IMG/VR virus record: IMGVR_UViG_3300032304_001148
Span: 1 to 37,887 of that record
Length of the DNA: 37,887 nucleotides
DNA from: a virus
Direction: 5' to 3' (one strand)
The translations under genes were made by a program, and so were the position numbers. The notes beneath the pieces were generated by a model. That model ran no database searches. It saw only the letters and a program-made list of their open reading frames with translations, and was not told where the DNA came from. Numbering within the stretch: the stretch's first letter is position 1; each line of letters starts with the position of its first letter. Below, in pieces: positions 1 through 25,967 of the stretch.

Positions 1-36
1 CCCCGCCACCGCCCCCGCCACCGCCCCCGCCACCGC
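1..36 (+). repeat. 12-bp tandem repeat encoding poly-proline
   Basis: The unit CCGCCACCGCCC occurs at 3-14 and 15-26, with a partial third copy at 27-35. In the reading frame of the first gene it encodes eleven consecutive prolines, so it is a coding microsatellite in a linker. The tract may continue to the left of the window. Confidence 0.85.
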
Positions 37-5070: not shown

Positions 5071-5412
5071 CTACCTATCCTGATCAACGTAAGACGACGT
5101 TGCTTCGCCTTCTTTATCCAACTGTGGGACGGCTTTGGCGGCGTGCTCTTCAACAAGTAGAAGGTACCGACGAAGGTCGCGAATATCGTCAATGAGGCCT
5201 TCGGGCCGCGTATCGGTTCCAATCGCGGTAAACACATCCCAGCCATGTTTTTTGCACTGATTCTCAAGTCTGTCCCACTTACGGGCAAGCATCATAAATG
5301 CGCCCACCCCGCCTCGGTTACGCCAGCTAGTGCCGTAACTTCGCTCGGCTTTGATTAGCCCTTCAATGTCTGCGCGGCAGATGCCGTTCAGACCACGTTC
5401 AAGATCATACAC
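5071..5412 (-). CDS. Conserved phage hypothetical protein (113 aa)
   Basis: A GTG start at 5412 is chosen because AAGGAG stands 8 nt upstream; the start lies within the last codons of the HD-domain gene. The 113-residue product contains WDRLENQCKKHGWDVFTAI and a TRPEGLIDDIRDLRRYLLLVE helix. This pairing recurs in small proteins of many phages and I recognise it as a conserved family without known function. It is likely an all-helical protein. It belongs to the coupled 3' end of the minus-strand operon. Confidence 0.75.
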   Translation of the reverse strand: MYDLERGLNGICRADIEGLIKAERSYGTSWRNRGGVGAFMMLARKWDRLENQCKKHGWDVFTAIGTDTRPEGLIDDIRDLRRYLLLVEEHAAKAVPQLDKEGEATSSYVDQDR

Positions 5413-5914
5413 GATTGCGCTCCTTTTCTAAGCTGTCAAGCAGTTGAAGCCCCACGGCCAGCGGGGAAAGTTGGTGCAAGTAGGCAACGCCTTTGTCAAA
5501 CACCTCAGCCATGTTGGCGTTGCCCAGCCGTAGCTCGTCCAAGCAGTAGTAGCACAGATCGAGCATGTCGGCCCACTTAAGCACTAGACGCTCTTTCTCA
5601 GTCAAGTCGGGGAACACCAAGAAGTTCTCAAGCATCTTGCGGTCCTCAAGCTCCTCAAGTGCCCCGCGCAGCTCAGGCGAGTCCCACTTCGCCGTGGCCG
5701 GCACGTCACCCGTCCACTGCTCGGCGGTGTCGTGCATGAGCACCGCAGACATTAGATGCGAGGACGGCGGTTTGGTATGGCAAAGTGCAAACACGATAGC
5801 CATGACGTTGGCGGTGTGCTCGCCTACGGTTTCTTGGTGGTGCACGCGACGCGTGTGCCAGCGGCGGACGTGGTTACCGTCACGTATGGACTTGATGATG
5901 TGGTAAGCGATCAT
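5405..5914 (-). CDS. HD-domain phosphohydrolase, 5'-nucleotidase YfbR-like
   Basis: A 169-residue HD-superfamily protein. Metal ligands are visible in order: His in the RRWHTRR/HHQE region, His33 in VGEH, the His61-Asp62 doublet in LMHDTAEQWTGDVP, and Asp116 in KWADMLDL. Length and motif spacing match YfbR-type deoxynucleoside 5'-monophosphatases, which dephosphorylate dNMPs. In this phage it could shape the dNMP pool, for example by removing unmodified pyrimidine monophosphates in favour of a modified one; that is inference. ATG 5914 has no Shine-Dalgarno, but a TATAAT box lies 9 nt upstream, which implies a very short or leaderless 5' end. Confidence 0.85.
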   Translation of the reverse strand: MIAYHIIKSIRDGNHVRRWHTRRVHHQETVGEHTANVMAIVFALCHTKPPSSHLMSAVLMHDTAEQWTGDVPATAKWDSPELRGALEELEDRKMLENFLVFPDLTEKERLVLKWADMLDLCYYCLDELRLGNANMAEVFDKGVAYLHQLSPLAVGLQLLDSLEKERNRV

Positions 5915-9078: not shown

Positions 9079-9405
9079 CTAGTCAAAATTTAGCGTCATG
9101 GGGCTGTAGGTAAGGCGGTTCTTGTCCCACCGCAGGATATCGCACGTGCCGTGGTTTTCCACCACAAGCGTCACGCAGATAGCGCACAGCGCGGGGTCCC
9201 CCGCCATCACCAAGTAGTCTCCTTCCTTGAATGTGGACAAAACCCGTCGCGCATGCTGCACAGCGCCACGCGGGTCATAGTCCCGGCTGATTGATGAAAA
9301 AACCTCTCGCACTTCGCCAAACTGCTCAGCCGCTGAGTAGTCTCTACGCCGGTCGGCATGCACCAACCAGGCAGTGCGTCGGTTACCTACAGAATCGTCA
9401 GTCAT
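9079..9405 (-). CDS. Conserved phage hypothetical protein (108 aa)
   Basis: A 108-residue protein whose ATG 9405 overlaps the stop of the DNA polymerase gene. The N-terminus is basic and helical (RRDYSAAEQFGEVREVFSS). The C-terminal half contains DYLVMAGDPALCAICVTLVVE and LRWDKNRLTYSPMTLNF. I recognise the MAGDPALCAI...LRWD pattern as a small conserved protein found beside DNA polymerases in many phages, with no established function. Translational coupling to the polymerase suggests a replication-related role. Confidence 0.78.
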   Translation of the reverse strand: MTDDSVGNRRTAWLVHADRRRDYSAAEQFGEVREVFSSISRDYDPRGAVQHARRVLSTFKEGDYLVMAGDPALCAICVTLVVENHGTCDILRWDKNRLTYSPMTLNFD

Positions 9406-11201
9406 TTGATATCTCCATACACTTTGCCCAGCTTGACTTCAGCTTTCACGGGCAACTCAGGCCACCACCGGGGCGGGGTACACATCACGCTTTCGATGTA
9501 ATCACGTGCTGCCTGGCCTTCGTGCTCATCAACCACAGCAACAAGCTCGTCGTGCACAGTGAGCGCGACCGGGTAAGTTGCGTTTACTATGAGCAGCTGC
9601 TCCATGACCACGTGCCGCGCAAGCGACTGCACGATATTTTCAGTGACTAGTCCGCCGTAGATACCGGAGCGCCCCTCGCCCCGCGCCACGTACGACCAGC
9701 GCCGGTCAGCGCTACTGTAGCTGAGCTCAGGGTACATCAAGGGGAACCCCGCCGGCAGCTTGATTTCGTTCTTGCCGGTCATGACCCGCAAGTGATCGCT
9801 GATAGAGTGTTCGCGCCCAGCGTGTATGAACTGCAGTGCGCGGTCGCACTTGTCCCAAAACTGCACGATCTTGTAGTTCTTCTTACGGTACGCCTCGATC
9901 GCTTTCTGGCACATCTCCTTCGACAGGGGCTTGCCTTGCACGCGGAGAAACTCGACGAAGGTGTTAGCGGACATACCGTACCCCGCCCCTAGCACCGTCA
10001 CCTTCCCCAGCCAGCGCTCCGCCTCATCAGCCTTGGTGATTGGCCGGCCGTAGATGAAGGACGCCATGTCGCAGTAGGGGTCAAGTCCTTGCTTGAAAAC
10101 GTCTATCAAGTCCTGCTGCCCAGCTACGCAGGCCAGGGCGCGGGCTTCAATCTGGGAGCTGTCGCCCACGATGAGTGCTTTGCCCGGCGGGGCCACGATG
10201 CCCTTGCGCAGCTTGGAGCCGCGAGTCAGGTTCTGCAAGTTGATGCCGCCCCCGCCGCTGAACCGCCCGGTGTGCGCCCCGTAGTAAAGCAACGGCACGG
10301 GTAGCAACCCGGTCTTGCCGATAGCGCTGAGTCGCTTGGCGCGGGTTTCCTCGATGGTAGACTTGAGCTTCAACCGAGCGCTGACCGCTGTTTGCACTCG
10401 AACGTCGGGATGCTCTAGCAGATCGGTGATGCCCTTGTCGTCTTTGGCGAAGGCGTAGGTAGGCTTACCCGTACGCTCGCTTATCTTCATGGGCGGCTCG
10501 ACCCCCAGCCCCCGGAGCGCCTCGGCGAACTTGGGGTTGGACATGATAGTGTCAAGGGTAATGCCCGCCTCAGCCAACGTCTTGTCGCGGTTCAAGTTCA
10601 GCTCGACCACGTAGTCGTCTAGCATGTCGTGGTCAACCGCCAACAGCGGCTGGGTTACCGCCTTGATAGCCCACTGCAGCAGTAGAAACTCGAACCGGGG
10701 GCAAGCGGCGATGAGATTCTTGTAAATCTCATAGCACAGGTCAACGTCTTTTACGCAGTACTCACCCAAGATGTTGCGCTCAAAGGGCTCAAGCTGCTCA
10801 AGTCGCTTGCCTTTAGCCACCGACAACCCGTCCAGTTTCGCCCCCAACCCCAAGCTGGCAGCTACGCTGTTGAGGCTGTACGACTTCAACCGCAGCTGCG
10901 CCCGGGCAAGCCCTACCGTGTCGGTGAACTCGTCAGGCGACCACCCGTAGTGGTGAGCCGCGATGGCCCCGTCAAACTGCGCATTATGCGCCACGCCGCG
11001 AAGCTTGGTGCCGTAGAACTTGAACGCTTTGCCGATGTCTGCCCCCCACGCCAGCACAGAGGGCTCGTCGTTCAGCTTGAAAGCGCAGCACTGAGCTTGG
11101 AAGCGGGGGTCGCGGATGTACTCGGTCGAGGTCATCTTAGACAACGAGTACCCTTCTGCGGGATCGTAGAAGGTCTCGAAGTCTAGCACTAGAGTATCCA
11201 T
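9402..11201 (-). CDS. Family A DNA polymerase with 3'-5' exonuclease
   Basis: A 599-residue replicative polymerase. The proofreading domain has Asp7/Glu9 (DFET), AHNAQFD with Asp78 and YCVKD with Asp152. The polymerase domain has HTGR (310-313), motif A VGDSSQIEAR with Asp347, the O-helix RWLGKVTVLGAGYG (396-409) and motif C HDE (550-552). There is no 5' nuclease domain, as usual for phage enzymes. The O-helix position equivalent to E. coli Pol I Phe762 is Leu404. ATG 11201 is chosen because it overlaps the TGA of the thymidylate-synthase-like gene and has AGAAGGAAG upstream; an in-frame start 33 nt earlier lacks support. It probably copies modified dUTP derivatives. Confidence 0.95.
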   Translation of the reverse strand: MDTLVLDFETFYDPAEGYSLSKMTSTEYIRDPRFQAQCCAFKLNDEPSVLAWGADIGKAFKFYGTKLRGVAHNAQFDGAIAAHHYGWSPDEFTDTVGLARAQLRLKSYSLNSVAASLGLGAKLDGLSVAKGKRLEQLEPFERNILGEYCVKDVDLCYEIYKNLIAACPRFEFLLLQWAIKAVTQPLLAVDHDMLDDYVVELNLNRDKTLAEAGITLDTIMSNPKFAEALRGLGVEPPMKISERTGKPTYAFAKDDKGITDLLEHPDVRVQTAVSARLKLKSTIEETRAKRLSAIGKTGLLPVPLLYYGAHTGRFSGGGGINLQNLTRGSKLRKGIVAPPGKALIVGDSSQIEARALACVAGQQDLIDVFKQGLDPYCDMASFIYGRPITKADEAERWLGKVTVLGAGYGMSANTFVEFLRVQGKPLSKEMCQKAIEAYRKKNYKIVQFWDKCDRALQFIHAGREHSISDHLRVMTGKNEIKLPAGFPLMYPELSYSSADRRWSYVARGEGRSGIYGGLVTENIVQSLARHVVMEQLLIVNATYPVALTVHDELVAVVDEHEGQAARDYIESVMCTPPRWWPELPVKAEVKLGKVYGDIK

Positions 11202-12181
11202 CAAGCTTCCTTCTCTTTGAGCCAGATCTTGCACGCGGTGCGCCAGTCACTCGCCTTGATGCTGTCAATGTACTTCAACCCGTTGCGCGTGCGCTTGTGC
11301 TCCCACCAGATGAGCGATATGGGCTGCACCACGTCCTGAAAGTACAGCGTGCGGTACTGCTTGTCGTCCTGCGGGTCCACCATGAACTCCTGCAAGTCGT
11401 GTTCCCAGTCCCGCACTGTGCAGTCTTTGAACATGGGGTAGGGCTGCACCAGCAACTCGGCGTACTCGGAGTCGTAGTAGTCAGTAGGCACGTAGGAGGT
11501 GTTCTCCACGTTCTTCCACACCGGCAACTTGGTGTACACGTGAAGCGAGTCAGACACCTGGGTATAGGGGCCGATTTCGTACTCGGTGCGCCCGGCGACG
11601 TACTCTTGCAACATGCTGAAGTGCACCACGTTGGCGCCCAGCTTGCCGTATAGCATGTCGTTAGAGCGGCAGCACACGGTCATGAGCAGCTTACCGTCAC
11701 GCACCTTCCAGTAGATATGCGTGTTGCACGGGTGATCCAGCTTCGACTGCCCCAAATCCAGGTCCGGGCTCCACATAGTGGTTACAACACGGCGATCCTC
11801 AGGGTTCAACTTCAGCAGTGTGATAGCTTTTTCAAGCTGATCAAAGCCCAGGGCGTGCCGAAGGCGGTGGCCGTACGCCCCCCAGAACGTCACCCCGTCG
11901 TCGCTGTACTGCTTCATTTGTGAGTTGAAGTAGTCTAGGAACTCGACGTCGCGGTACCCGCCGATAATCCACAACCCTTCCATGTGGTGAAAGAACGGGT
12001 TACACATGCGGTTCTTGTCAAAGAGCACCCGCTCGGTGGGCCGACGGTAGGTGGTGGCTACCGGCTCGGGGAACTCAAGCACGGGGCCGTTGCGCGAGTT
12101 CCGGGGCATCCCCTTCGCCTTGATCGCGTTGATCTCGAGCGGGAACGCTTGGTTCACGTTGGTGACGTTGAAGACTTCCAT
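11201..12181 (-). CDS. Thymidylate-synthase-like, predicted dUMP hydroxymethylase
   Basis: A 326-residue ThyA-superfamily protein. Landmarks are Arg130-Arg131, WSPDLDL, the nucleophile Cys152 in DHPCN (canonical enzymes have PPCH), RSND (172-175), GANVVHF with Asn184, and VSDSLHVY in place of the DxHIY motif. The overall divergence from canonical ThyA and the neighbouring kinase/pyrophosphorylase genes point to a pyrimidine hydroxymethylase using methylene-THF, making 5-hmdUMP. Asn184, if aligned to the Asn that reads uracil in ThyA (Asp in dCMP hydroxymethylases), favours dUMP as substrate. A true thymidylate synthase remains possible. It is translationally coupled to the DNA polymerase by a 1-nt stop/start overlap. 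Confidence 0.82.
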   Translation of the reverse strand: MEVFNVTNVNQAFPLEINAIKAKGMPRNSRNGPVLEFPEPVATTYRRPTERVLFDKNRMCNPFFHHMEGLWIIGGYRDVEFLDYFNSQMKQYSDDGVTFWGAYGHRLRHALGFDQLEKAITLLKLNPEDRRVVTTMWSPDLDLGQSKLDHPCNTHIYWKVRDGKLLMTVCCRSNDMLYGKLGANVVHFSMLQEYVAGRTEYEIGPYTQVSDSLHVYTKLPVWKNVENTSYVPTDYYDSEYAELLVQPYPMFKDCTVRDWEHDLQEFMVDPQDDKQYRTLYFQDVVQPISLIWWEHKRTRNGLKYIDSIKASDWRTACKIWLKEKEA

Positions 12182-12192
12182 GAGCGATGTCC

Positions 12193-13101
12193 TTAGAAAC
12201 GGGTTTCGGGTTGGTAGTTGGAGCGGGGGCGTCCACCGTTCAGCGCCCGCGCATACTTGTCGTACTCGCAGAAGCAGTTCTGCCAGTCGTGCAGCGTAAG
12301 ATCGTTGAGCTGGCCGTTCAACATGGCGTTGACTTTTTCAAGCGTAAGCATGAGCTCTTGATTAAATCTGTCCTGCGGTATCCGCTGATAAAGCGCACGT
12401 TCGAACACCCGGTTCAGCCCACGGGTTGAGCCCGGACCGATCGGGGCGTAAGTGCGCAGATCGGGAGCTGAGCTCAACACGCTGCTGTAGGTTAGATCGG
12501 CCACGGCTTGGCCGGTCATAAAAGTGCCCCATCCGTACTGCCCCTCAAACTTCGCCATCGACCCACGCACTGTCCTAGTGTCAGGATACGAGCGGGAGAA
12601 GTAATCGCCGATGCTATCGTCTGCAAGCAACGGCTGCAGCACCGTCTTGGCTACCCAGAACCCCTTACCCATACCTTCTGGGACTTGCCTAGCGGTAATG
12701 ATGTAGGCCCCGGTCCAGGTCTTATGCCCTTGCTGCACCCGGCGATCGATCAAGGCTCCGAACGCCTCGGCGTCAAATTCGCCTTCAGGCCACAAGCCGG
12801 CATCCATGATAGCTTGCAGCGTAGGAGGCCAGTTGATCCACCGAGCGCAGCACAGCATAAACCACAACCGGGGGTGGCTGTCGTAGGGTTTGATTATGGA
12901 GTCTATGACCCACTTCGAGACCCGGTCGTGCTTGCGCCGAACATTGCAGAAGCGGTACTGCTGCAATATGAGGTCAGGCGTCCACGGAGCGGGCATGCCG
13001 GTTTCTTTTACAACACGGATACGCTCGCGCTCACTCACAAAGTGAGCCATCTGCTTCAGCCGCCAGTCAACCGGGCTATCTATGACGAGGTCATACTGCA
13101 T
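12193..13101 (-). CDS. 5-hmdU DNA kinase helical-domain (HMUDK_hel-like) protein
   Basis: A 302-residue, predicted all-helical protein. The segment LQQYRFCNVRRKHDRVSKWV (about residues 46-65) and ARWINWPPTL (86-95) are the signature I associate with the helical domain linked to 5-hydroxymethyl-dU DNA kinases, a family related by computational work to HhH DNA-glycosylase folds and thymine hypermodification. Unlike fused forms, it has no P-loop; a kinase is encoded directly upstream. ATG 13101 has AAGGAG 8 nt before it and overlaps the kinase gene by 11 nt, so the two are probably co-translated partners. The predicted role is positioning or flipping modified bases in DNA. Recall of the family name is from memory, unverified. 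Confidence 0.65.
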   Translation of the reverse strand: MQYDLVIDSPVDWRLKQMAHFVSERERIRVVKETGMPAPWTPDLILQQYRFCNVRRKHDRVSKWVIDSIIKPYDSHPRLWFMLCCARWINWPPTLQAIMDAGLWPEGEFDAEAFGALIDRRVQQGHKTWTGAYIITARQVPEGMGKGFWVAKTVLQPLLADDSIGDYFSRSYPDTRTVRGSMAKFEGQYGWGTFMTGQAVADLTYSSVLSSAPDLRTYAPIGPGSTRGLNRVFERALYQRIPQDRFNQELMLTLEKVNAMLNGQLNDLTLHDWQNCFCEYDKYARALNGGRPRSNYQPETRF

Positions 13102-13651
13102 AGCCAAGCTCCTTCAGGATGACGTCAACGGCTTCTTCGGTGCTGACCCAGTGCGGGTTCAACCCCGCTGCGTGCAGCTTCTTGGCTGAGGAAATGTTCT
13201 TCTTGTCGTTGGTCAGTACGTTGTCAGTTTTCTCCAAAGGGGGCTTGCCTTCGGCCGCACGACGCTTGTTCACGTTGGCCACGCACTGCTCGAAGGGCGT
13301 GCTAAGGCAAACCGGCACCAGCCGCGCTCCCACCAGTTTGAGCCGCTCGTTTAGCAGGATTGTAGGCTCGTACACGTTGCCCACGATGACCCCTTCGTAT
13401 ATGACGTTGGAGTGTTCGGCGCACTCGACTACAGCATCCCACACCTGCTTTGGAGTCTTGATGGTGTCGCACCCGCCGCAGACCCGGTCGTACGAGCCGA
13501 GGATGACGAAGTTCTTGTAGACGTTGACCAGTACGCCGTTCGACAGCGTGACCTTTTTGACGAAGTCCGGGTCAGCGCGTTCCATCACCCGACGGGCTAC
13601 CCAGGTCTTGCCCGCACCGTTAGAGCCGCGAATAGAGATCACGGTATGCAT
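13091..13651 (-). CDS. P-loop kinase 1, predicted 5-hmdU DNA kinase
   Basis: A 186-residue P-loop NTPase of nucleotide/polynucleotide-kinase type. Walker A is GSNGAGKT (9-16). LSNGVLVNVYK, GSYDRVCGGCDTIK and VIYEGVIVGN follow, and an Arg-containing lid-like region (NKRRAAEGKPP) lies before the C-terminus. In thymine-hypermodifying phages such kinases phosphorylate 5-hydroxymethyl-dU in DNA. Its stop overlaps the helical-domain gene, consistent with a split kinase. A sigma70-like promoter (TTGTCC-17-TATAAT) lies 27 nt upstream of ATG 13651, and GGAG is 8 nt before it. It is paralogous to the next gene upstream. Confidence 0.75.
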   Translation of the reverse strand: MHTVISIRGSNGAGKTWVARRVMERADPDFVKKVTLSNGVLVNVYKNFVILGSYDRVCGGCDTIKTPKQVWDAVVECAEHSNVIYEGVIVGNVYEPTILLNERLKLVGARLVPVCLSTPFEQCVANVNKRRAAEGKPPLEKTDNVLTNDKKNISSAKKLHAAGLNPHWVSTEEAVDVILKELGYAV

Positions 13652-13674
13652 AGAAGTTCTCCGTTAGCGTTTGA

Positions 13675-14268
13675 TTAGATTATAACGTGCTCGGGCTTAA
13701 AGGACAAGCCCAAAAGCGTCATTGAAGCTATTAGCGCGTCACGCTGCGACACCAGCCTCGCGTCCACACCCCAGGACTTCAGCTTGGCGTGCGCAAGCTC
13801 GACAGCGCGGTACTTGGGCAGCAGCGACTTGCCGGGGTCGAAGGGCTTCTCGTTGCCTGCCAGAGCGCGACGGTTCATCGTTTGCTGAATGCATTTTTCT
13901 TTCGGCGTGTCAAGCGTCAGCGCGTGGAACTCGCCGTACGGGGCGCACGCATCGGCGACGTCTTTGGTCAACTGCTGCAACCCGGACAGTAGCAAGCCCT
14001 CCAGAACGATGTGAGCGTGAGGTATGACCTCGGCGCAAGCCTCGACAATGTCTCGCACGTTACGAACGCGATCTACGCCGCCGGTTACAGCCCCTTCGTA
14101 CAAACCGACGAACGCCACCGTAGCGCCCGCTGGGGTCTTGTACAGATGCATGAAAACCCCGTTGGAGGTCTTGAAGTCTTTGTACGGCGTCAGGTGGCTC
14201 ATCAGCGTTCGCACTACCGTAGTCTTGCCTGCGCCGTTGGTGCCGCGGATGTTGATTACGTGATTCAT
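13675..14268 (-). CDS. P-loop kinase 2, paralogue of the adjacent kinase
   Basis: A 197-residue P-loop kinase with Walker A GTNGAGKT (9-16). It shares colinear motifs with kinase 1: TSNGVFMHLYK, GLYEGAVTGGVDRVR, and IVEACAE followed by HIVLEGLLLSG. An Arg-rich lid (MNRRALAGNEKP) is conserved in position. The two genes are tandem paralogues. Possible roles are a second phosphorylation step (mono- to pyrophosphate), a different modified base, or a heterodimer with kinase 1; the sequence cannot decide. ATG 14268 overlaps the stop of the pyrophosphorylase-like gene. Confidence 0.75.
   Translation of the reverse strand: MNHVINIRGTNGAGKTTVVRTLMSHLTPYKDFKTSNGVFMHLYKTPAGATVAFVGLYEGAVTGGVDRVRNVRDIVEACAEVIPHAHIVLEGLLLSGLQQLTKDVADACAPYGEFHALTLDTPKEKCIQQTMNRRALAGNEKPFDPGKSLLPKYRAVELAHAKLKSWGVDARLVSQRDALIASMTLLGLSFKPEHVII
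13679..13707 (-). promoter_or_regulatory. Sigma70-type promoter before P-loop kinase 1
   Basis: On the minus strand TTGTCC (13707-13702) and TATAAT (13684-13679) are separated by exactly 17 nt, with the -35 inside the last codons of kinase 2. The ATG of kinase 1 lies 27 nt after the -10. This would let kinase 1 and downstream genes (helical-domain protein, hydroxymethylase, polymerase) be transcribed by the unmodified host polymerase. Confidence 0.6.
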
Positions 14269-15056
14269 ACGCGCACCATGTCGTCAGTGGGATCAACGGG
14301 CATATACTGCAGGATGTGATCGGCGATCTCGCCGAAGCCCGCGAGGTCGGCTCGTTTTTCCAAGATGTCCTTACCTATGGGCTTCTTGTTGCCGTAGTAG
14401 GCCTTGGCCATGCAGGCGATAGTTTCGGCTTCGGCTACGCCGCATCGCCTAACGTAGCGCGGCGGGGCGTCCAGGTGGTTGATCTCAGCCACCACCTTGA
14501 GCAGTGCTTCGGCGTAGTTGGCTTTGCGGTTACCGGCCAGCTCAGGAAACAGTATGTCGAGTCCCTGCATGGGCAGCGCCACCATGTGGTGCTCGGACTC
14601 GGTCCAGTCAACGTCGTAGCCAAAGACCGCCTCACGCAAGTCCATGCACTTCCAAGTAAAATAGTGCCCGATCTGCGGGATACCTTTCTGCAACAGTTTC
14701 ATGAAGGACGGCTGCATGCAGTCCTGGAAGAACCGCTCCGGGGTGCCGTAGGTGTTGATCCACGAGCGGAGCGCCTTCTTGCCCGCCTCGCCGCGAAAGT
14801 GTCGCCGCTCGGAAGCGCGGGGGGCGCTGTCGTAGCGGTTCCACAGTTCGGTCCAAAACTCGTCGCCTTGCAGCGTGCACACCTGGCACGCGGTGCCCAT
14901 GTGGTAGTAGGTGACGAACGCGGCGCACCAGCGCATGAGCATGTCTTCAGGCATACCGCTCTTGTGCAGCGCAACGTACACCGGATCTAGGTCATCAGTC
15001 AGCACGGTGTACTGCGCGAACTGCGTCCAGGGCATACTGGGGTCATACGTCAACAT
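14265..15056 (-). CDS. Alpha-glutamyl/putrescinyl-thymine pyrophosphorylase-like (clade 2)
   Basis: A 264-residue helical protein. Recognisable blocks are DPVYVALHKSGMPEDMLMRWC, TYYHMGTACQV, SERRHFRG (82-89), IGHYFTWKCMD, and CGVAEAETIACM followed by KPIGKDIL. I associate this set with the aG/PT-PPlase clade 2 family predicted to exchange pyrophosphate on 5-PP-methyl-dU for an amino acid or polyamine in hypermodified phage DNA. ATG 15056 is preferred over in-frame starts at 15122 (deep inside the next gene) and 15035 (no ribosome site), because AAGGA lies 8 nt upstream. The nucleophile transferred cannot be read from the sequence. Confidence 0.65.
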   Translation of the reverse strand: MLTYDPSMPWTQFAQYTVLTDDLDPVYVALHKSGMPEDMLMRWCAAFVTYYHMGTACQVCTLQGDEFWTELWNRYDSAPRASERRHFRGEAGKKALRSWINTYGTPERFFQDCMQPSFMKLLQKGIPQIGHYFTWKCMDLREAVFGYDVDWTESEHHMVALPMQGLDILFPELAGNRKANYAEALLKVVAEINHLDAPPRYVRRCGVAEAETIACMAKAYYGNKKPIGKDILEKRADLAGFGEIADHILQYMPVDPTDDMVRV

Positions 15057-15807
15057 AGCCGAGGTCCTTGAATTGGTCAAGATGAACGATTGGTCTAGTG
15101 TCGAAGATGTCGCACCAGTCATGGCGCAGCACCTGATCGAACAAGAAGGTGTAGTTGATAGCGTCGTGGGCGCATGCCCGCATGCTGTACCCGTAGTTGG
15201 CGCGGAAGAACGCCGCTACCCCGCGCACGTAGCTCTCGTAGCACTGAATGTTGTAGTTGAAGAAGTTGGAGTAGGTGCGCCGGTGCAAGTGCTCTTTGAC
15301 TTTGGCGCTGTCAACAAAAGCGACGTAGCGAGGCTGGGCGTTGAAAACCGCATCTAGCAACCGGCGTTCCTTCGGGTCTCGCATAGCCCGATAGGTTGTC
15401 ATGGCGTTGAACTCAAGCAACACGTAGTCAAACTGCTTCAACTGGGTGATGACCGGCGCCAACGCGTACGAGTCGCCCTGAAACACCGAGGCTTGCGGGC
15501 GCAAGTGCTTGAACGCCGCGCAACACCCCGGGTCATGGTCAAGCGCTACGTGCTCAATCAAGCGTTCGTTGCCGAAGGGGGCAGTGCTCAGCCCGAAGCC
15601 GCAAAACACCTCAAGCACCGCTAGCGCGTCGTCCGGTATGGTGCGGTTGACGTACCAGACCTGCTCGGCGTAGGTGAGCGTAGAGCGAAGCGAGTCGTTT
15701 AGCCAATGCTGCATACCCACCGCATCAGCCGAGGCGGGGGTATCAGCGTTTTCGGCGGGCACGTAGAACCGAACCCCTTTGTACTCGGCGTGTCGAAGTT
15801 GAATCAT
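15043..15807 (-). CDS. Class I SAM-methyltransferase-like protein
   Basis: A 254-residue protein with a Rossmann methyltransferase core. Motif I is VLEVFCGFG (64-72), the acidic loop is VALDHDP (87-93), FQGDSY (109-114) fits motif III, and DYVLLEFNAM (127-136) occupies the motif IV position. FCGFG recalls cytosine-C5 methylases, but no PCQ catalytic motif or target-recognition domain follows, and no DPPY-type amino-methylase motif is seen. It is therefore more likely a small-molecule or modified-base tailoring enzyme than a restriction-type methylase. It overlaps the genes on both sides (ATGA with the preceding one), placing it inside the modification operon. Substrate unknown. Confidence 0.65.
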   Translation of the reverse strand: MIQLRHAEYKGVRFYVPAENADTPASADAVGMQHWLNDSLRSTLTYAEQVWYVNRTIPDDALAVLEVFCGFGLSTAPFGNERLIEHVALDHDPGCCAAFKHLRPQASVFQGDSYALAPVITQLKQFDYVLLEFNAMTTYRAMRDPKERRLLDAVFNAQPRYVAFVDSAKVKEHLHRRTYSNFFNYNIQCYESYVRGVAAFFRANYGYSMRACAHDAINYTFLFDQVLRHDWCDIFDTRPIVHLDQFKDLGYVDV

Positions 15808-16310
15808 ACAGCGGATAGAGAGCGATTTTCAGGCTCGCGCATGAAAGACGGAACACCCAGCTTCCAGGTAGCAAACTTGCTTTTGTGCAGGCGATAGTAC
15901 TTGCGGTACGCGGAGACAGAGTCGCCGGGCACGCGGCACTCGTCGGGCATAGCTTGAGGCGGCTCGCGCCAAAGGAACTTGCCGGCCAGCAGCGCGGGCG
16001 GGGGCGACGTGAGCACGCCTTTGATGTACTGCTCGCACGCATGCCGACGGCCGTAGCGCACGGCGTACTCGTTGCAGAGGTAAACGCCTAGATCACGAAG
16101 CCAGCTGTACTGGACTTTGGACTCAGCAGCCCACTTGACCGACGGATGATTGACGTGCGTGGGCTTGTACGGCACCGCAGCGCCGTTACCGTGAATGTGA
16201 TGCACGGTGCAAAGGATCTGCGCAGTTTCGAGGATCATTTTGACCACGTGCACATCGCAGTGCATGGCCGCAGCCATAGGGGGAACGTGATGCAGGTAGA
16301 AGATGTTCAT
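15804..16310 (-). CDS. Conserved phage protein, possibly DenV-like
   Basis: A 168-residue protein. MHCDVHVVKMILETAQILCT, YKPTHVNHPSVKWAAES, YGRRHACEQY and QAMPDECRVPGDSVSAYRKYY form a pattern I recognise from a family common in T4-like and cyanophage genomes, usually unannotated. Layout (N-terminal H-x-V/L-x-x-M-x-x-E helix, His-rich core) is reminiscent of the pyrimidine-dimer glycosylase DenV, but this is a fold-level suspicion only. Its place at the head of the base-modification operon makes a DNA-base-related function plausible. ATG 16310; its stop overlaps the methyltransferase-like start. Confidence 0.65.
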   Translation of the reverse strand: MNIFYLHHVPPMAAAMHCDVHVVKMILETAQILCTVHHIHGNGAAVPYKPTHVNHPSVKWAAESKVQYSWLRDLGVYLCNEYAVRYGRRHACEQYIKGVLTSPPPALLAGKFLWREPPQAMPDECRVPGDSVSAYRKYYRLHKSKFATWKLGVPSFMREPENRSLSAV

Positions 16311-16313
16311 GGT

Positions 16314-16613
16314 TTAAGCCCCCTTGCGTGCGGTGACGCGGACGGTGGTGACGTCGGCGGACTTGGTATGAGCGCGGATGAACTGAGGCGACAAGTGCCG
16401 GCGCACGGCTTCCATGTCAAGGGTTTCGCGCTGCGACACGCTGACCGACACGCGGAACATTTCGCCTTCGACAGCGCCCACGCCGACTTCCTCGACGATG
16501 GCGTTTTTAAGCTCGGTTTCTTGCGCTTGCAGCGTGGCGATCTGTGCCTTGATTTGACCCAGACGGTCGATGCGCTGCTCGAGAGACTCGGGAGAGGGGG
16601 TAGCGGTTGTCAT
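16314..16613 (-). CDS. Coiled-coil phage protein (99 aa)
   Basis: A 99-residue protein with an N-terminal heptad-like helix (LEQRIDRLGQIKAQIATLQA, then QETELKNAIVEE). A compact C-terminal half follows (GEMFRVSVSVSQRETLDMEA, RRHLSPQF, TTVRVTARKGA). The helix-then-strand layout, with the FRVSVS...R...D...VRR pattern, recurs in small early proteins of proteobacterial phages. Function is unknown; an Gp157-like or DNA-end accessory role is speculative. CTGGAG precedes ATG 16613, and the GATTAAAAAATACAAT element lies 85 nt upstream, so this may be the first gene of the modification operon. Confidence 0.7.
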   Translation of the reverse strand: MTTATPSPESLEQRIDRLGQIKAQIATLQAQETELKNAIVEEVGVGAVEGEMFRVSVSVSQRETLDMEAVRRHLSPQFIRAHTKSADVTTVRVTARKGA

Positions 16614-16697
16614 GTTGAAGCTCCAGTTAGAGAGTTACGCGTTGGTGCGAAGTGCGCCAACGTGACCTTAGTTTAGGTCAAGTCAGCGCGGTGGCTA

Positions 16698-16713
16698 ATT
16701 GTATTTTTTAATC
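16698..16713 (-). promoter_or_regulatory. GATTAAAAAATACAAT promoter-like box
   Basis: On the minus strand this 16-mer is identical to the one at 21341-21326 and differs by one base from the plus-strand copy at 21518. TACAAT is a near-consensus -10. A TGCTTAGATT box (16725-16716) overlaps its upstream flank by position. It points toward the coiled-coil gene and modification operon (16613 downward). The gap 16614-16732 has no gene. Confidence 0.55.
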
Positions 16714-16732
16714 GGAATCTAAGCACTGATAG

Positions 16733-16831
16733 TCATCCCGGACTCCACACTAGCACATCGAGCGCCAACACCACGAAGGCCAGCGCGTACACCGCAACCC
16801 AGACCACCGGCGACAAGTCTTCGTGTTTCAC
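16733..16831 (-). CDS. Tiny predicted membrane protein (32 aa)
   Basis: A GTG start at 16831-16829 overlaps the TGA of the preceding gene (GTGA), giving a 32-residue product. It has a short polar N-terminus (VKHEDLSPVV) followed by a 17-19-residue hydrophobic segment (WVAVYALAFVVLALDVLVW) and a TGA stop. The exact stop/start overlap and the clean transmembrane helix argue for a real translationally coupled micro-gene. Chance cannot be excluded at this length. No family is recognised. Confidence 0.5.
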   Translation of the reverse strand: MKHEDLSPVVWVAVYALAFVVLALDVLVWSPG

Positions 16832-17085
16832 TTTGCGGCCTCCCGCAGCCCGCGCCAAGGCAAACACTGCACAATGGACGCATTGTCTGGGTTCGCCGCC
16901 CGCTGCATTGCGCGGTCCGGGGCGGAGTCGCCCACGAACCAGTCGCGGCCGTTCCAGTAGGCGTAGGCCTTGAAGCCCCGGTCCGGGCCGTAGTTGACGT
17001 AACTACGTTCGTAGACGCCGGGTCTAGCGGGTACTGCAGACCCTACAAACCACGGGGTAAGCTCGTCATTCCTGTGTCTTGTCAT
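16828..17085 (-). CDS. Small phage hypothetical protein (85 aa)
   Basis: ATG 17085 is preferred to the further upstream in-frame start at 17193 because AAGGAG stands 9 nt before it, and because a coupled upstream gene occupies the intervening DNA. The 85-residue product contains PWFVGSAVPARPGVYERSY, FKAYAYWNGRDWFVGD and CLPWRGL. This W-rich beta pattern (P..PGVYER...F.YWNG..W) is typical of small phage and prophage proteins of unknown function that read like an SH3-like or carbohydrate-binding mini-fold. It is coupled by overlap to genes on both sides. Confidence 0.72.
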   Translation of the reverse strand: MTRHRNDELTPWFVGSAVPARPGVYERSYVNYGPDRGFKAYAYWNGRDWFVGDSAPDRAMQRAANPDNASIVQCLPWRGLREAAK

Positions 17086-17261
17086 TTGTCGGTGCTCCTT
17101 GGTTTGGCGCCCGCTGCTCGCGCTGCGCGTTGCGCCCCTATCAGGGTGCTGTAGGTGTTGTGCCCCACGTAGGCGACTTTTTTCTTCACCCACAAGGTCA
17201 CTTGAAAGCGCCAGCCGCCTCCGCGTTGCAGGCTGTAGATTGTGTCAATCGTGTATTCCAT
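17082..17261 (-). CDS. Small basic protein (59 aa)
   Basis: A 59-residue gene: ATG 17261 is preceded by TAGGAG at 9 nt, and the TGA (17084-17082) overlaps the next ATG. The product is strongly basic: it starts MEYTIDTIYSLQRGGGWRFQ and continues with a WVKKKVAYVGHNTY segment and an Ala/Arg-rich helix (GAQRAARAAGAKPR). It resembles a single beta-sheet plus helix nucleic-acid-binding mini-protein, such as an integrase arm-type fold, but that is only an impression. It is the first gene after the primase-helicase. Confidence 0.65.
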   Translation of the reverse strand: MEYTIDTIYSLQRGGGWRFQVTLWVKKKVAYVGHNTYSTLIGAQRAARAAGAKPRSTDK

Positions 17262-17290
17262 GTTAGCAATCTCCTAGCTCAGTTGACAAA

Positions 17291-17308
17291 GCTCGCGGGG
17301 CTGCGAGC
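17291..17308 (-). terminator. Hairpin between primase-helicase and small genes
   Basis: A perfect 6-bp stem, GCTCGC/GCGAGC, with a 6-nt loop. On the minus strand it is followed by only TTTG, so it would be a weak terminator or an attenuating 5'-leader hairpin 30 nt before the 59-residue gene. Confidence 0.4.
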
Positions 17309-17333
17309 AGCTTAATGACGCCACAGATGAAAG

Positions 17334-19700
17334 TCAATCATCGGCGTCGCTCTTGGCGGCTGTGCCGCCGGTTAGAGACTTGAACTCGCCATAGAAGCGG
17401 TTGGCGTACCCGGCGCGCCACGTCAGGCGGTAGCCGCTGTATTCGGCTCCGCGCACGTTGCCCACTGCGCGCCCTATGGCCACCGTAGACAGCGTTCGCA
17501 TTCGGCCCAACGTAAGCAGCGTGGCCTCAAGGTTGCGGTCGAAACCGATCTTGTCCTGGATGTCGCTAGAGCTGAAGCGCTCGCCGGGCGGGAAGGTGCG
17601 GAACAGCCAGCCCACGAACTCGTCTTTGAGGCTGTAGTCCTCGTCCACGGCGCGAACCCGCAAGTCGTCTCGCATGGGGTCGATGAGCCCGGCGACAATG
17701 ACCGCCCGCCGCACGAATTGATCCCACTCGTAGAAGCGGGACGGGCGGAACGCGGGTACGGCGTCAGCCGGGGCGCGAGCCCCATTCTGCAACAACCGCA
17801 GCACCGCGCACAACACCGCACGGCGACGGCTGAGCGCGTACTCTAGCAGCTGCGGGTGGGTGAACTCCTCCGTGATGCGGCGATCGAACTCGACCACTAT
17901 GGAGCGAGTCATTATTTCCTCGCTGGGGCGGACGTTGATGCCGTTGACAATGAGCGTGGTCCGGGGGGTGAACTGCACGGTGTCGTTCTTGCCAAGTAGC
18001 CGCGCCTTGAACTTGCCGGAGGTGATGAGCTCGGTCAGCGCTTGGCTGTGGAAGCGCCCGTTCTGGTTGTCAAACACCATAACGTCGGGGTCCTCCATGA
18101 AGTACGACGTCAGCTGCTTGATCTGTTCTTCTTCGTTGCCCGACAGGCTGTAGTTGGCGGGCTCTTTGCTTAGGATGATCTGCGGTAGGTAGGACCAGAT
18201 AGTCTTGCCGTCGGCGGGGTAAGGCGACGTGACGATGAAGGCGGGGGCTTTGTCTAGTACTTTCCGGGCCACCGCTGACAGCAGCGTGGTGATGGATAGC
18301 GACAGCCCGATTTCGCGTGAATGGAAGGGGAAGTCGGCGTACAAGTCTTGCAGCGTGGTCAGGGCGTCGGCTACCTCTAGCTTGTCCACCTCCGCCTGGG
18401 TAATGCCCAACCCTTCGCCGATGTAGAAGGAGGTGTCGCGGTTGAAGCCTTCGTCTGTAACGAGGTGGCCTTCTCGGGTGACCAAAGGATACATACACAC
18501 TCCGTTGATGCGCGGCATGCCCCAGTTGATAGACGGGTCCATCATTCGGCGCACCAACCGCGAGTCCGCCTCTATCACTACGTCAACCTTCTCTTTACCG
18601 TCCACGCGCACGAACTGGACGTGCCCCTCAAGGTGGTGCGCGAAGGCGTCCGAGCCGGGGCGTAGCATGACGGTGTCGTTGTAGCCGGGAGCGCCCCGGC
18701 GCATAACCACCACCGCCGACCCCGCGTAGCTGAACAATGTCTTTTCCGAGTCGGGCACTGCGGCTATGATCTTGACGGCCTCGTTTACGGCGTCCTCCAT
18801 GCTGACGCGGGTGAGGTTGATCTTGGGCTTGCCCTCCTTGGCTACCTTGCCGCTTTCCGCGATTTTGGACGGCAACCACTTCTTGACGCGGTCCGTTTCC
18901 CACCCGAACGCCTCCAGCGAGGCGAACCCGGCCACCGGCTTCCCGTCGGCCAGACGCTTGTAGGTGTCGTCAACGTCGCCTTGCTTGTCCTCGTCATCGT
19001 CGATGAGGTAGGATATGGCTTTCACCGCCCGCCGCGCCATCTCGATGGGGACCCCCGCCTTGGCGAAGCCGCCTATCACGCGCAACATCGAGTCGTGCCG
19101 GATGCCGGGGGCAATCGAGTGCTTCACCCATATGACGGTCATCATCACGCCCAGCGCCATCTTAAGGTCGGCTTCGTCGATGAGCGGGGGCTCGCCGGTG
19201 CAGTCTACCCACTGCACTGCGTGCTCGTGGCGCGACGGGGGGAACACCGTCTGGCTGTTGTCGCCTCGGTACTCAATGCACTTGACGATGGCGCCGCCGG
19301 TTTCCTTCTTGGACAACCGCCAGTCCGCCGACGACTTGGTGCCGCCCTCAACGTGGTACAGGTAGTGTGAGGGGATGACGGAGTCGCTTTCGCCGGGGTA
19401 TATGCGGCCGAACCGCCAGCCCGTGGGCGGCAAGAACCAGGAGCCGATCTTGCGGGCTATGGGGTGGTCAAGGTCGATGTCGATGAGGTTCCCGGACACC
19501 GCCCCCAGTTGCACCCCGATGTTGCTAAGCCCCTTGAAGTCGTCCAGGGTGTAGGCGGTGTCCTGCCACCCGGTAAGGCGTATCACCTTGGAGTTGGGCA
19601 GTATTGGCAGGCACTTCCAGCCCTTGGCTGTGTAGGCTTGATAGGCCTTCTTTATGGCGTCGGCGTGAGCGCGAGCTTCGTCTAACGTGGGCGTTGTCAA
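17334..19700 (-). CDS. Primase-polymerase/helicase fusion
   Basis: A 788-residue protein. The N-terminal ~180 residues are an archaeo-eukaryotic-type primase-polymerase domain: GVQLGAVSGNLIDIDLD with Asp74/Asp76/Asp78, SHYLY with His112, and IEYRGDNSQTVFPPSRH (142-158). The C-terminal part is a P-loop helicase-like ATPase with a degenerate Walker A, SPYPADGKT (492-500), and a Walker B-like VMVFDN (540-545) ending in Asn. It is expected to prime and unwind DNA for the family A polymerase. The start is TTG 19700 with AAGGA 7-8 nt upstream; no ATG fits better. It is the second gene of the minus-strand operon. Confidence 0.88.
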   Translation of the reverse strand: MTTPTLDEARAHADAIKKAYQAYTAKGWKCLPILPNSKVIRLTGWQDTAYTLDDFKGLSNIGVQLGAVSGNLIDIDLDHPIARKIGSWFLPPTGWRFGRIYPGESDSVIPSHYLYHVEGGTKSSADWRLSKKETGGAIVKCIEYRGDNSQTVFPPSRHEHAVQWVDCTGEPPLIDEADLKMALGVMMTVIWVKHSIAPGIRHDSMLRVIGGFAKAGVPIEMARRAVKAISYLIDDDEDKQGDVDDTYKRLADGKPVAGFASLEAFGWETDRVKKWLPSKIAESGKVAKEGKPKINLTRVSMEDAVNEAVKIIAAVPDSEKTLFSYAGSAVVVMRRGAPGYNDTVMLRPGSDAFAHHLEGHVQFVRVDGKEKVDVVIEADSRLVRRMMDPSINWGMPRINGVCMYPLVTREGHLVTDEGFNRDTSFYIGEGLGITQAEVDKLEVADALTTLQDLYADFPFHSREIGLSLSITTLLSAVARKVLDKAPAFIVTSPYPADGKTIWSYLPQIILSKEPANYSLSGNEEEQIKQLTSYFMEDPDVMVFDNQNGRFHSQALTELITSGKFKARLLGKNDTVQFTPRTTLIVNGINVRPSEEIMTRSIVVEFDRRITEEFTHPQLLEYALSRRRAVLCAVLRLLQNGARAPADAVPAFRPSRFYEWDQFVRRAVIVAGLIDPMRDDLRVRAVDEDYSLKDEFVGWLFRTFPPGERFSSSDIQDKIGFDRNLEATLLTLGRMRTLSTVAIGRAVGNVRGAEYSGYRLTWRAGYANRFYGEFKSLTGGTAAKSDADD

Positions 19701-19715
19701 GGCGGGGTCCTTACG

Positions 19716-21248
19716 TCAAAAGATTTCGCGCAGTACGTCCATGTGGCCGTCTTTGCGGCGGACGTGAAGCTTGCGCGGGGTGGGCAACGAATAGCATTCG
19801 ATGCGTGCGCGTTGGGCACTGCGGGGAAAGGCAGGGGCGCTACTATAACCGCGCCGCCGCGCCCACTGCTCCGCGTGCCAACGGGCTCCGCCGTCGTACT
19901 CGACGCAAACAAACTGCGTCACGTCCAGGCTGACCCCGGTGTCAGTCTCGCAGTCGTACACCGCCATCAGCAGCTGCTTGCCGGGGAACCGGGCGGAGTT
20001 CCGCACCACGTAGGAGCACTTGACCACGTTGACAAGCAGCCCTTCGGCCGAGCCCAGCATAGGGTCGATGGCTTGCAGCGCCAACTGCTTGACGCCGCGC
20101 CGGGGCGCTTCGCGTTGTTGGGCGTCCTTGTCACCCTTGGTCACTGGCTCAACTTTGCCGCCCTTCTCACGGCTCCAGTTTTCCATGGTGTCCACCCCGC
20201 CCAACCGGGCCAGGTTGCCCACGTAGTCCAGCACCAGGCAGTCGGCTTTGCCGGCGGCAATGCGCATACCCCGTCCCAACATCTGCACCCAAAGAGCGCT
20301 TGACGTTGTAGGGCGCAGGCAGACGATGGCGTCCAGGGCGGGGAAGTCAAACCCCGTGGTCAGGATGTCCACGTTGCACATGAAGCGGAACTCGCCCGCC
20401 TTCCACGCGCCCAGCCGGTCGTCGCGGTCGGGGGTGTCGGCGGTCACATAGTCGGCAGTCTGCCCGTTGGCATTCAACCACTCGCACGCCTTGCGCGCAG
20501 TCTCCACCGTGGGGCAGAACACCAACACGTGCTTGCGCTTCTGCAAGTGCGCCAGCGAGTTGCGCAGCGCGGCGGCAAGCCACCCTTCGGCGTTGATGGC
20601 TTGTTCGGTGCCGGACTGGCTGAAGTCGCCGCCCACCTTGCGCACCCCGCCCATGTCCAGTTGCCATTCGGTTTGCACCCCGCGCAACGGCGCCAGGAAG
20701 CCCTGCTCAACCAGTTCAAGGGCGGGCAGTTGGTAGGCCAGCACATCGAAGTGCTTCTTGTCGCCGTAGATGGCGCCGCCGTCAAGCCGCCATGGGGTAG
20801 CGCTGAGCCCGATGCGGCGCACGCCGGTTTCGGCAATGAACCGGTTGTACATCAGCCCCTCACCGTCCGGCGGAACTAAGTGCGCCTCGTCAATGACCAC
20901 GGCGTTCAACCCGCGCTGCTTGAACTCTTCAGCTCGCTTGAACACCGACTGTATCGACGCGAACACTATGGGCGCGTCCGGTTCGTCACGGTTCAACCCC
21001 GCGCAGCACACCCCGGTGGGGGTGTCCGGGGCGTAGCGCCGCAACGTGGCCTCGTTCTGCTGAACGAGTTCCTTCACGTGCGTCACCACCACGAGGCGAC
21101 CGCCCTTCTGCGCGAACTTGGAAGCCAAGTGCGCAATGACCAGCGACTTGCCCGCGCCGGTGGGCAGTTGCAGAGCGGGGTTCAGACCGTCACGCAGCGC
21201 TTGCACTGCGGCGGTGATGGCGTCTTTTTGGTAGTATCGAAGTTCCAC
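19716..21248 (-). CDS. SF2 DEAH-type DNA helicase
   Basis: A 510-residue superfamily 2 helicase of the RecG/UvsW/Res-III type. Motif I is PTGAGKS (29-35), Ia VVTHVKELVQQN, II VVIDEAH with Asp120-Glu121, III LSATPW, a helicase C-domain VLVFCPTVETARK, V LTTGFDFP and VI QMLGRGMR. A C-terminal ~120-residue extension follows (KDGHMDVLREIF end). It likely remodels forks or unwinds DNA during early replication or recombination. GTG 21248 is the start; the ribosome site is weak. It is the first gene after the divergent control region, so probably an immediate-early gene. Confidence 0.9.
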   Translation of the reverse strand: MELRYYQKDAITAAVQALRDGLNPALQLPTGAGKSLVIAHLASKFAQKGGRLVVVTHVKELVQQNEATLRRYAPDTPTGVCCAGLNRDEPDAPIVFASIQSVFKRAEEFKQRGLNAVVIDEAHLVPPDGEGLMYNRFIAETGVRRIGLSATPWRLDGGAIYGDKKHFDVLAYQLPALELVEQGFLAPLRGVQTEWQLDMGGVRKVGGDFSQSGTEQAINAEGWLAAALRNSLAHLQKRKHVLVFCPTVETARKACEWLNANGQTADYVTADTPDRDDRLGAWKAGEFRFMCNVDILTTGFDFPALDAIVCLRPTTSSALWVQMLGRGMRIAAGKADCLVLDYVGNLARLGGVDTMENWSREKGGKVEPVTKGDKDAQQREAPRRGVKQLALQAIDPMLGSAEGLLVNVVKCSYVVRNSARFPGKQLLMAVYDCETDTGVSLDVTQFVCVEYDGGARWHAEQWARRRGYSSAPAFPRSAQRARIECYSLPTPRKLHVRRKDGHMDVLREIF

Positions 21249-21325
21249 TTGAGGTCAGCCTTCAGTTCGAAGTTACGGCCCATAGTTTAGGTGCGCGGGT
21301 GGGGTCAAACCCGCTTGAGCCAGCC

Positions 21326-25785: not shown

Positions 25786-25967
25786 TGTGGTGCGTGCTCA
25801 AGTGCTGCAACGAGGTACACTTGGTTCCGGTTGACGACTACCGCCTGCACGAAGTAGGCGATGAGGGCGAGTGCTGGTGCCGCCCCGACGTGGACGCCGA
25901 GGGCGTCATCAAACACAACGCACTTGACGGCCGCGAGTGGTACGAGAACGGAGCACCCTTGCAGTGA
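25785..25967 (+). CDS. Small conserved phage protein (60 aa)
   Basis: ATG 25785 overlaps the preceding TGA by one base. The 60-residue protein contains CCNEVHLVPVDDYRLHEVGD, then ECWCRPDVDAEGVIKHNALDGREWYE. The C-x-C-x-P...(V/I)xHxxLDGRE pattern is a recurring small phage protein; the Cys/His set could hold a metal. It lies between the putative small and the large terminase genes and overlaps the latter (GTGA). Function unknown. Confidence 0.72.
   Translation: MWCVLKCCNEVHLVPVDDYRLHEVGDEGECWCRPDVDAEGVIKHNALDGREWYENGAPLQ

Follow-up and report, generated by a model that had tools for sequence, protein, structure and literature searches.

A predicted thymidine hypermodification operon with a methyltransferase-like candidate tailoring gene in an IMG/VR virus record

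Which modified base would be made by a cluster of seven genes that leads into the DNA polymerase gene of a virus, and does its pathway belong to a described kind? The cluster occupies positions 16310-11201, on the minus strand, of IMG/VR virus record IMGVR_UViG_3300032304_001148 (37,887 bases, possibly incomplete), and this whole stretch is called the window below. An earlier, sequence-only reading had proposed a thymine hypermodification operon with hydroxymethylase, DNA kinase and transferase in that order, and this proposal is supported by profile matches, by a transferase relative of solved structure and by synteny with the characterised phages M6/YuA and PaMx11. Judged from sequence, the operon is a member of the described M6/PaMx11/PhiW-14 kind of thymidine hypermodification, since the order and content of its genes match the M6/YuA/PaMx11 core and its ThyA homologue is hydroxymethylase-like. 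It differs only at the tailoring end. The further claim that the gene complement matches no single pathway holds for that end, where a methyltransferase-like gene (MT) and a second kinase are found and not radical S-adenosylmethionine (SAM)/pyridoxal phosphate (PLP) or flavin adenine dinucleotide (FAD)/acetyltransferase enzymes, and fails for the core. The core genes would, with high probability, convert 5-hydroxymethyl-deoxyuridine (5-hmdU) in DNA into an aminoacyl-thymidine.

Core genes of the operon

The seven tightly packed open reading frames (ORFs) and the polymerase gene polA were recovered on the minus strand with unchanged coordinates, in the order DenV-like gene (15804..16310), MT (15043..15807), amino acid:DNA transferase gene (AADT, 14265..15056), kinase genes K2 (13675..14268) and K1 (13091..13651), HMUDK_hel (12193..13101), ThyA homologue (11201..12181) and polA (9402..11201). 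The genes had been described as overlapping throughout. Their packing is indeed tight, but overlaps occur at the DenV-like/MT (4 nucleotides, nt), MT/AADT (14 nt), AADT/K2 (4 nt) and K1/HMUDK_hel (11 nt) junctions, whereas gaps separate K2 from K1 (23 nt) and HMUDK_hel from ThyA (11 nt). The proposed 1-nt overlap with the family A polymerase is present, the ThyA stop codon and the polA ATG at 11201 sharing one base in TGATG. Start codons were picked from the starts of homologues and from Shine-Dalgarno-like sequences, AAGGA(C/G) lying upstream of several of the chosen starts. For AADT we took the ATG at 15056, where the homologues begin, and for HMUDK_hel the ATG at 13101, its longest ORF opening at TTG 13107.

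The Pfam search that had been suggested as a check found PF00303, PF18723, PF18748 and PF18724 across 11201-15056. The ThyA homologue matches PF00303 (E 7e-19) and phrog_5131 (E 3e-104), its identity to the M6 and PaMx11 homologues is 41.5% and 40%, and the best match among solved structures is a CMP 5-hydroxymethylase. We aligned it with the proteins of M6, YuA, PaMx11, ViI and an SPO1-like phage, using the thymidylate synthases (TS) of E. coli, phi3T and a T4-like phage as controls. The protein has PCN beside the catalytic Cys where TS has PCH or PCV, carries the (G)AN motif of the phage group, shows Asn at the position that reads uracil in TS, and lacks the TS-type C-terminus (the A-V/I closing segment). 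As these features are common to the M6, ViI and SPO1-like enzymes and those of TS are absent, the alignment supports a predicted dUMP hydroxymethylase. A plain thymidylate synthase was rejected on the basis of PCN and the missing C-terminus.

HMUDK_hel, the predicted helical partner of 5-hmdU DNA kinase, matches PF18723 (E 9.3e-42, residues 18-288), a family whose proteins annotators also call aGPT-Pplase1, and is 33-36% identical to the M6/YuA/Sonora homologues (33% for M6/YuA) and 32% to that of PaMx11. AADT matches PF18724 (ADDT; 35.4 bits, over the cut-off), whose proteins are alternatively named aGPT-Pplase2. The sequence-only reading had called this protein an aG/PT-PPlase-like, pyrophosphorylase-type transferase. 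The family assignment stands, PF18724 being that of the amino acid:DNA transferases, so that the predicted chemistry is the described route from 5-hmdU to aminoacyl-thymidine. Among solved structures the AADT sequence matches PDB 8z2m, "Glycinyltransferase" (E 4e-15), and PDB 25qc, "Amino acid:DNA transferase domain-containing protein" (E 5e-13), and it retains the invariant ERR/R and ExETxxC residues. Its closest named relatives are those of P26218 and MW202557 (32%) and of PhiW-14 (30.5%). We also considered reading the transferred amino acid from the AADT tree. Because the window protein and its relatives form a clade apart from that of the M6/PaMx11 enzymes, the tree does not give the amino acid.

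Comparison with known systems

The hypermodified thymidines of M6, ViI and PhiW-14 are derived from 5-hmdU via 5-hmdU DNA kinase (PMC6449724). In PaMx11, gp46-gp51 encode AADT, FAD enzyme, acetyltransferase, kinase, HMUDK_hel and ThyA, followed by an HD gene and, further on, polA; in YuA the order is AADT, PLP enzyme, radical SAM enzyme, kinase and HMUDK_hel and then, after other genes, ThyA, HD and, further on, polA. These roles are ones that we take from homology and from the literature, and the PaMx11/YuA records label several of the genes otherwise (threonine dehydratase, DNA repair photolyase, terminase small subunit). Lee and colleagues reportedly described, in 2022, side chains of amino-acid origin that undergo flavin, radical-SAM, PLP and acetyltransferase tailoring steps.

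The window shares with PaMx11 the core genes and their order up to ThyA, besides the AADT match to the 8z2m glycinyltransferase, and shares core content and order with M6/YuA, whose base is 5-(2-aminoethyl)-2'-deoxyuridine (5-NedU). In contrast to PaMx11, it has no homologue of the FAD enzyme or acetyltransferase and carries K2, MT and the DenV-like gene instead; in contrast to M6/YuA, it has no radical SAM or PALP domain and its AADT falls outside the M6 clade. Pfam scans of the whole record for radical SAM and PALP found nothing, and tblastn with the YuA PLP/radical SAM and PaMx11 FAD/acetyltransferase proteins gave no match in the window. Such tailoring enzymes are frequent in operons of this kind, but not all of the operons have one, and they do not strictly define the kind.

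Rhodoferax phage P26218 and MW202557 have an AADT-kinase-ThyA-HD arrangement, in which the kinase is nearest to K2 and no known tailoring gene lies nearby. They differ from the window in that HMUDK_hel is found nowhere in their genomes, a single kinase match occurs in the record and MT is absent. Delftia phage PhiW-14 resembles the window in AADT and in having HMUDK_hel, but these two genes lie about 22 kb apart in its 157 kb genome, again with no MT. For the terminase-related phage MW202545, no hypermodification gene is listed in the stretch examined.

Survey of AADT loci

Since megablast of positions 9400-21250 against phages gave no match, the comparisons were made at the protein level. We typed 98 AADT neighbourhoods, from IMG/VR and from isolates, with hidden Markov models built for this analysis. 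The window group consists of 14 IMG/VR contigs, with AADT proteins 57-74% identical and with two kinases, HMUDK_hel and ThyA in all of them. Core gene order is common to the 14 contigs and protein identity is 55-83% in the gene pairs tested. The ratio of nonsynonymous to synonymous differences per site (pN/pS) was 0.14-0.43 in all pairs tested between the window and three relatives, rough values with pS near saturation. The conserved order, the protein identities and these ratios argue that the operon is not a chance assembly, and the sequences indicate that its genes are under purifying selection.

These data bear on a simpler explanation, in which T is either merely swapped for 5-hmdU or left as it is, with the downstream genes inactive or employed elsewhere. 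Some phages do have ThyA-like genes without AADT. We nevertheless consider this explanation very improbable, because kinases, HMUDK_hel and AADT retain their motifs under apparent purifying selection (pN/pS 0.14-0.35) and occur together in the 14 contigs.

Variation was also observed around the core. The commonest arrangement surveyed, found in L009, L011 and about 20 IMG/VR loci (L079-L094 and others), is a compact AADT-kinase-ThyA operon without HMUDK_hel, so the need for the helical partner is not universal. Some relatives (L003:4902-5564, L002:13852-14223, L032:7824-8177) have extra small genes inserted at the ThyA/polA or the AADT/K2 junction, and the 1-nt coupling of ThyA and polA is therefore not conserved in the group. 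In L002:5043-6368 (also L004:6369-7049), upstream of the DenV-like gene, a gene whose product by eye resembles two fused glycosyltransferase domains has no match in the window; the modified base of L002/L004 might also be glycosylated.

The two kinases

Both proteins that had been described as P-loop kinases belong to the 5-hmdU DNA kinase family, with K1 over the PF18748 cut-off (39 bits) and K2 under it (19 bits). K1 adjoins HMUDK_hel and is 33.7% identical to PaMx11 gp49. K2, in the slot between AADT and K1, is a paralogue of K1 (29% identity, E about 1e-20), and the Walker A, GGxD and EG motifs are intact in both. In the kinase trees K1 and K2 form two separate clades, and K2 clusters with the sole kinase of the P26218-type operons (support 89/91 and 90/88). 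As K2 groups with these single kinases and K1 adjoins HMUDK_hel as in M6/PaMx11, the operon looks like two modules joined, AADT-K2-ThyA and K1-HMUDK_hel.

A second kinase is not unique to this phage, since two or three kinases, of several lineages, occur in 11 of the 84 AADT loci outside the window group. In L141 and L139 the AADT operon includes three members of the 5-hmdU DNA kinase family. The intermediate of PhiW-14 is a pyrophosphate, which makes it plausible that K1 and K2 add successive phosphates.

Two kinases per operon call for an explanation, and another role for K2, compatible with the pathway favoured here, would be that of a nucleotide kinase converting 5-hmdUMP to 5-hmdUDP for dNTP supply. 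A kinase acting on the nucleotide pool would be useful, as in SPO1-like phages. We regard this role as unlikely: K2 retains the GGxD and EG motifs seen in K1, its nearest kin are sole kinases of AADT-kinase-ThyA operons, where a DNA kinase role is expected, and extra kinases are scattered over several lineages of the family.

The methyltransferase-like gene

The sequence-only reading had called MT methyltransferase-like. A methyltransferase fold is predicted, although no family match over the cut-off was obtained with Pfam, PHROG or NCBIfam profiles, and MT thus belongs to no curated family. With tblastn nothing was found in phages or in genome contigs, nor was there a PDB match with a narrow profile. 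An AlphaFold2 model built from 8 sequences (predicted local distance difference test, pLDDT, 75; predicted template modelling score, pTM, 0.80) shows a Rossmann methyltransferase fold. It gave 419 matches in the PDB with E <= 0.001, the top ones among the matches listed being SAM methyltransferases, with TM-scores of only about 0.3-0.6; among viral structures, the two best matches carry the annotation AdoMet_MTases. In an alignment of seven family members, down to 20% identity, the GxG loop and the D after strand 2 are invariant, as are several acidic residues, a D(S) motif, an L-H pair and two Tyr (distant members 20-33% identical). We therefore describe MT as a predicted class I SAM-methyltransferase-like protein with putative SAM binding.

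The distribution of MT associates it with AADT operons. Within the window group the gene is present in 8 contigs and absent from 5, in which the DenV-like gene abuts AADT, and one contig ends too early to tell; it was found nowhere in the whole 51.6 kb contig behind L006, nor in P26218, MW202557, PhiW-14 or MW202545. Distant members lie beside AADT operons in four more contigs (L085, L101, L123 and L157). The last of these came from the MT search, not from the AADT search, and has MT shortly after AADT-kinase-HMUDK_hel-ThyA. A search with the MT-family alignment gave 12 loci, all with an AADT operon except L163, where MT is at the contig end and no operon is visible. Known tailoring genes occur in none of the 11 MT-bearing loci versus 41 of the 87 MT-less ones; outside the window group they occur in 41/84 loci. 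The gene itself has pN/pS 0.33-0.37 between the window and its relatives. Linkage, apparent exclusivity with other tailoring genes and predicted fold together lend moderate support to MT as a candidate tailoring enzyme, and the reading in which the core pathway is followed by MT tailoring of the attached amino acid is slightly favoured overall.

Several observations weigh against this. MT is missing from five close relatives and is therefore not essential, and the 11 loci with MT come from no more than about three lineages. The virus record is possibly incomplete, and a tailoring enzyme could lie outside it. AADT stands outside the clade of the M6/PaMx11 enzymes. MT is also weakly similar to the phrog_116 DNA methyltransferases (best E 7e-5), on account of which it could instead methylate another base. 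More broadly, the core may be the same and MT not a tailoring enzyme, acting on another base, on RNA or as a non-catalytic Rossmann subunit, in which case the base would be an untailored aminoacyl-thymidine such as N-alpha-glycyl-T, as would be predicted for P26218-type phages, whose operons consist of AADT, kinase and ThyA only. The 46 of 98 loci with neither MT nor a known tailoring gene agree with this, as do the absence from close relatives and the phrog_116 similarity. Opposed to it are the lack of the PCQ (C5) and DPPY (amino) motifs of DNA methyltransferases and the presence of the family beside AADT operons wherever flanking DNA exists. We consider a non-tailoring MT doubtful, though a serious competitor.

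The two specific DNA methyltransferase classes were rejected. A C5-cytosine enzyme would carry PCQ, which is absent, the position reading LEFN/LEYN in the window group and DPT/DFP/DQM elsewhere; the (D/N/S)PP(Y/F) motif of amino (N6/N4) enzymes is present in no member.

With a wider MT profile, the SAM methyltransferase 8vyd was matched at E 0.0014 and the spermidine synthases 1iy9 and 1uir at noise level (E 0.084 and 0.4). The latter raise the idea that MT transfers a non-methyl group. An aminopropyl group taken from decarboxylated SAM, for instance, would make the side chain resemble a polyamine, and PhiW-14 DNA does carry alpha-putrescinylthymine (PMC5977210). Given the better match to a SAM methyltransferase and an AADT that shows no specific grouping with the enzyme of PhiW-14, we hold the transfer of a non-methyl group to be most unlikely.

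The DenV-like gene and other features of the window

The DenV-like protein matches phrog_624, "DNA binding protein" (E 2e-55), and some of its relatives are annotated as pyrimidine dimer glycosylase; the DenV label comes from this match and from the annotations of relatives only. Two relatives are annotated as endonuclease V. Since 610 phage records hold a relative, with cyanophages and vibriophages numerous among them, the gene is not pathway-specific. No PDB match was found, and the fold model (pLDDT 43) is too poor for fold comparison with endonuclease V. Outside the window group, L127, L130, L105, L114, L082 and L117 have a weak relative either close to AADT or in the interval from AADT to the kinase, and such AADT pathways may involve a glycosylase-like protein.

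The polA product is a family A DNA polymerase with 3'-5' exonuclease (PF00476, E 2e-25; PF01612). Downstream of the operon, 5405..5914 on the minus strand encodes a YfbR-like 5'-deoxynucleotidase (HD; PF12917, E 8e-18), 33% identical to PaMx11 gp52 (E 2e-16) and homologous to the HD gene that comes after ThyA in PaMx11/YuA/P26218; it probably trims the canonical dNMP pool. Elsewhere, a 499-codon ORF with no Pfam match (25838-27337, minus strand) runs antisense to the gene for the large terminase subunit (25937-27352, plus strand) and probably arises merely from the 60% G+C composition. The record opens, at window 1-36, with repeated CCCCGCCACCGC units, maybe an assembly end or a piece of a longer repeat.

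Proposed pathway and its meaning

For this phage we infer every reaction, as well as the amino acid, the MT substrate and the division of labour between the kinases. The ThyA homologue would make 5-hydroxymethyl-dUMP which, as the triphosphate, the polymerase would insert in DNA instead of T. K1 with HMUDK_hel, and K2, would add phosphate to the 5-hydroxymethyl of the 5-hmdU residues in DNA. AADT would then displace the phosphate with a free amino acid, possibly glycine, attached through its amino group, to give an aminoacyl-methyl-dU, and MT would probably alkylate the attached amino acid, at its amine or carboxylate, in a SAM-dependent reaction perhaps like that of tRNA MnmC. The earlier description of the operon as feeding the polymerase fits the ThyA step only, because phosphorylation and amino acid transfer in pathways of this kind take place on DNA that has already been replicated. 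Standing in for part of the thymine, the modified base would protect the DNA of the virion against restriction by the host.

In tRNA, MnmC methylates an aminomethyl group on C5 of uracil in a SAM-dependent manner (PMC9626948). On paper the likeness of the MnmEG/MnmC system, with its products 5-carboxymethylaminomethyluridine (cmnm5U), 5-aminomethyluridine (nm5U) and 5-methylaminomethyluridine (mnm5U), lies in a glycine-derived C5 side chain on uracil and subsequent SAM-dependent methylation (PMC9626948). The tRNA system differs in that it acts on U34 with methylene-tetrahydrofolate/FAD chemistry and in that a flavin cleavage by MnmC precedes methylation; we propose analogy between MT and MnmC, and claim no homology. 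The most specific form of our proposal, that MT represents an undescribed SAM-dependent tailoring family that alkylates the thymidine-bound amino acid as a DNA counterpart of MnmC, with an undescribed base such as an N-methylated aminoacyl-methyl-deoxyuridine, is put forward tentatively. It is possible that the final base is undescribed, as the sequence-only reading had suggested.

An MT family that accompanies AADT operons in separate phage lineages, and that is variably present in close relatives whose operons are otherwise alike, offers a testable route to a new DNA base. The comparison of relatives with and without MT is, in addition, a way to learn what tailoring buys a phage against restriction, and the recurrent second kinase makes the phosphorylation step, and the need for two phosphates, open to reconstitution.

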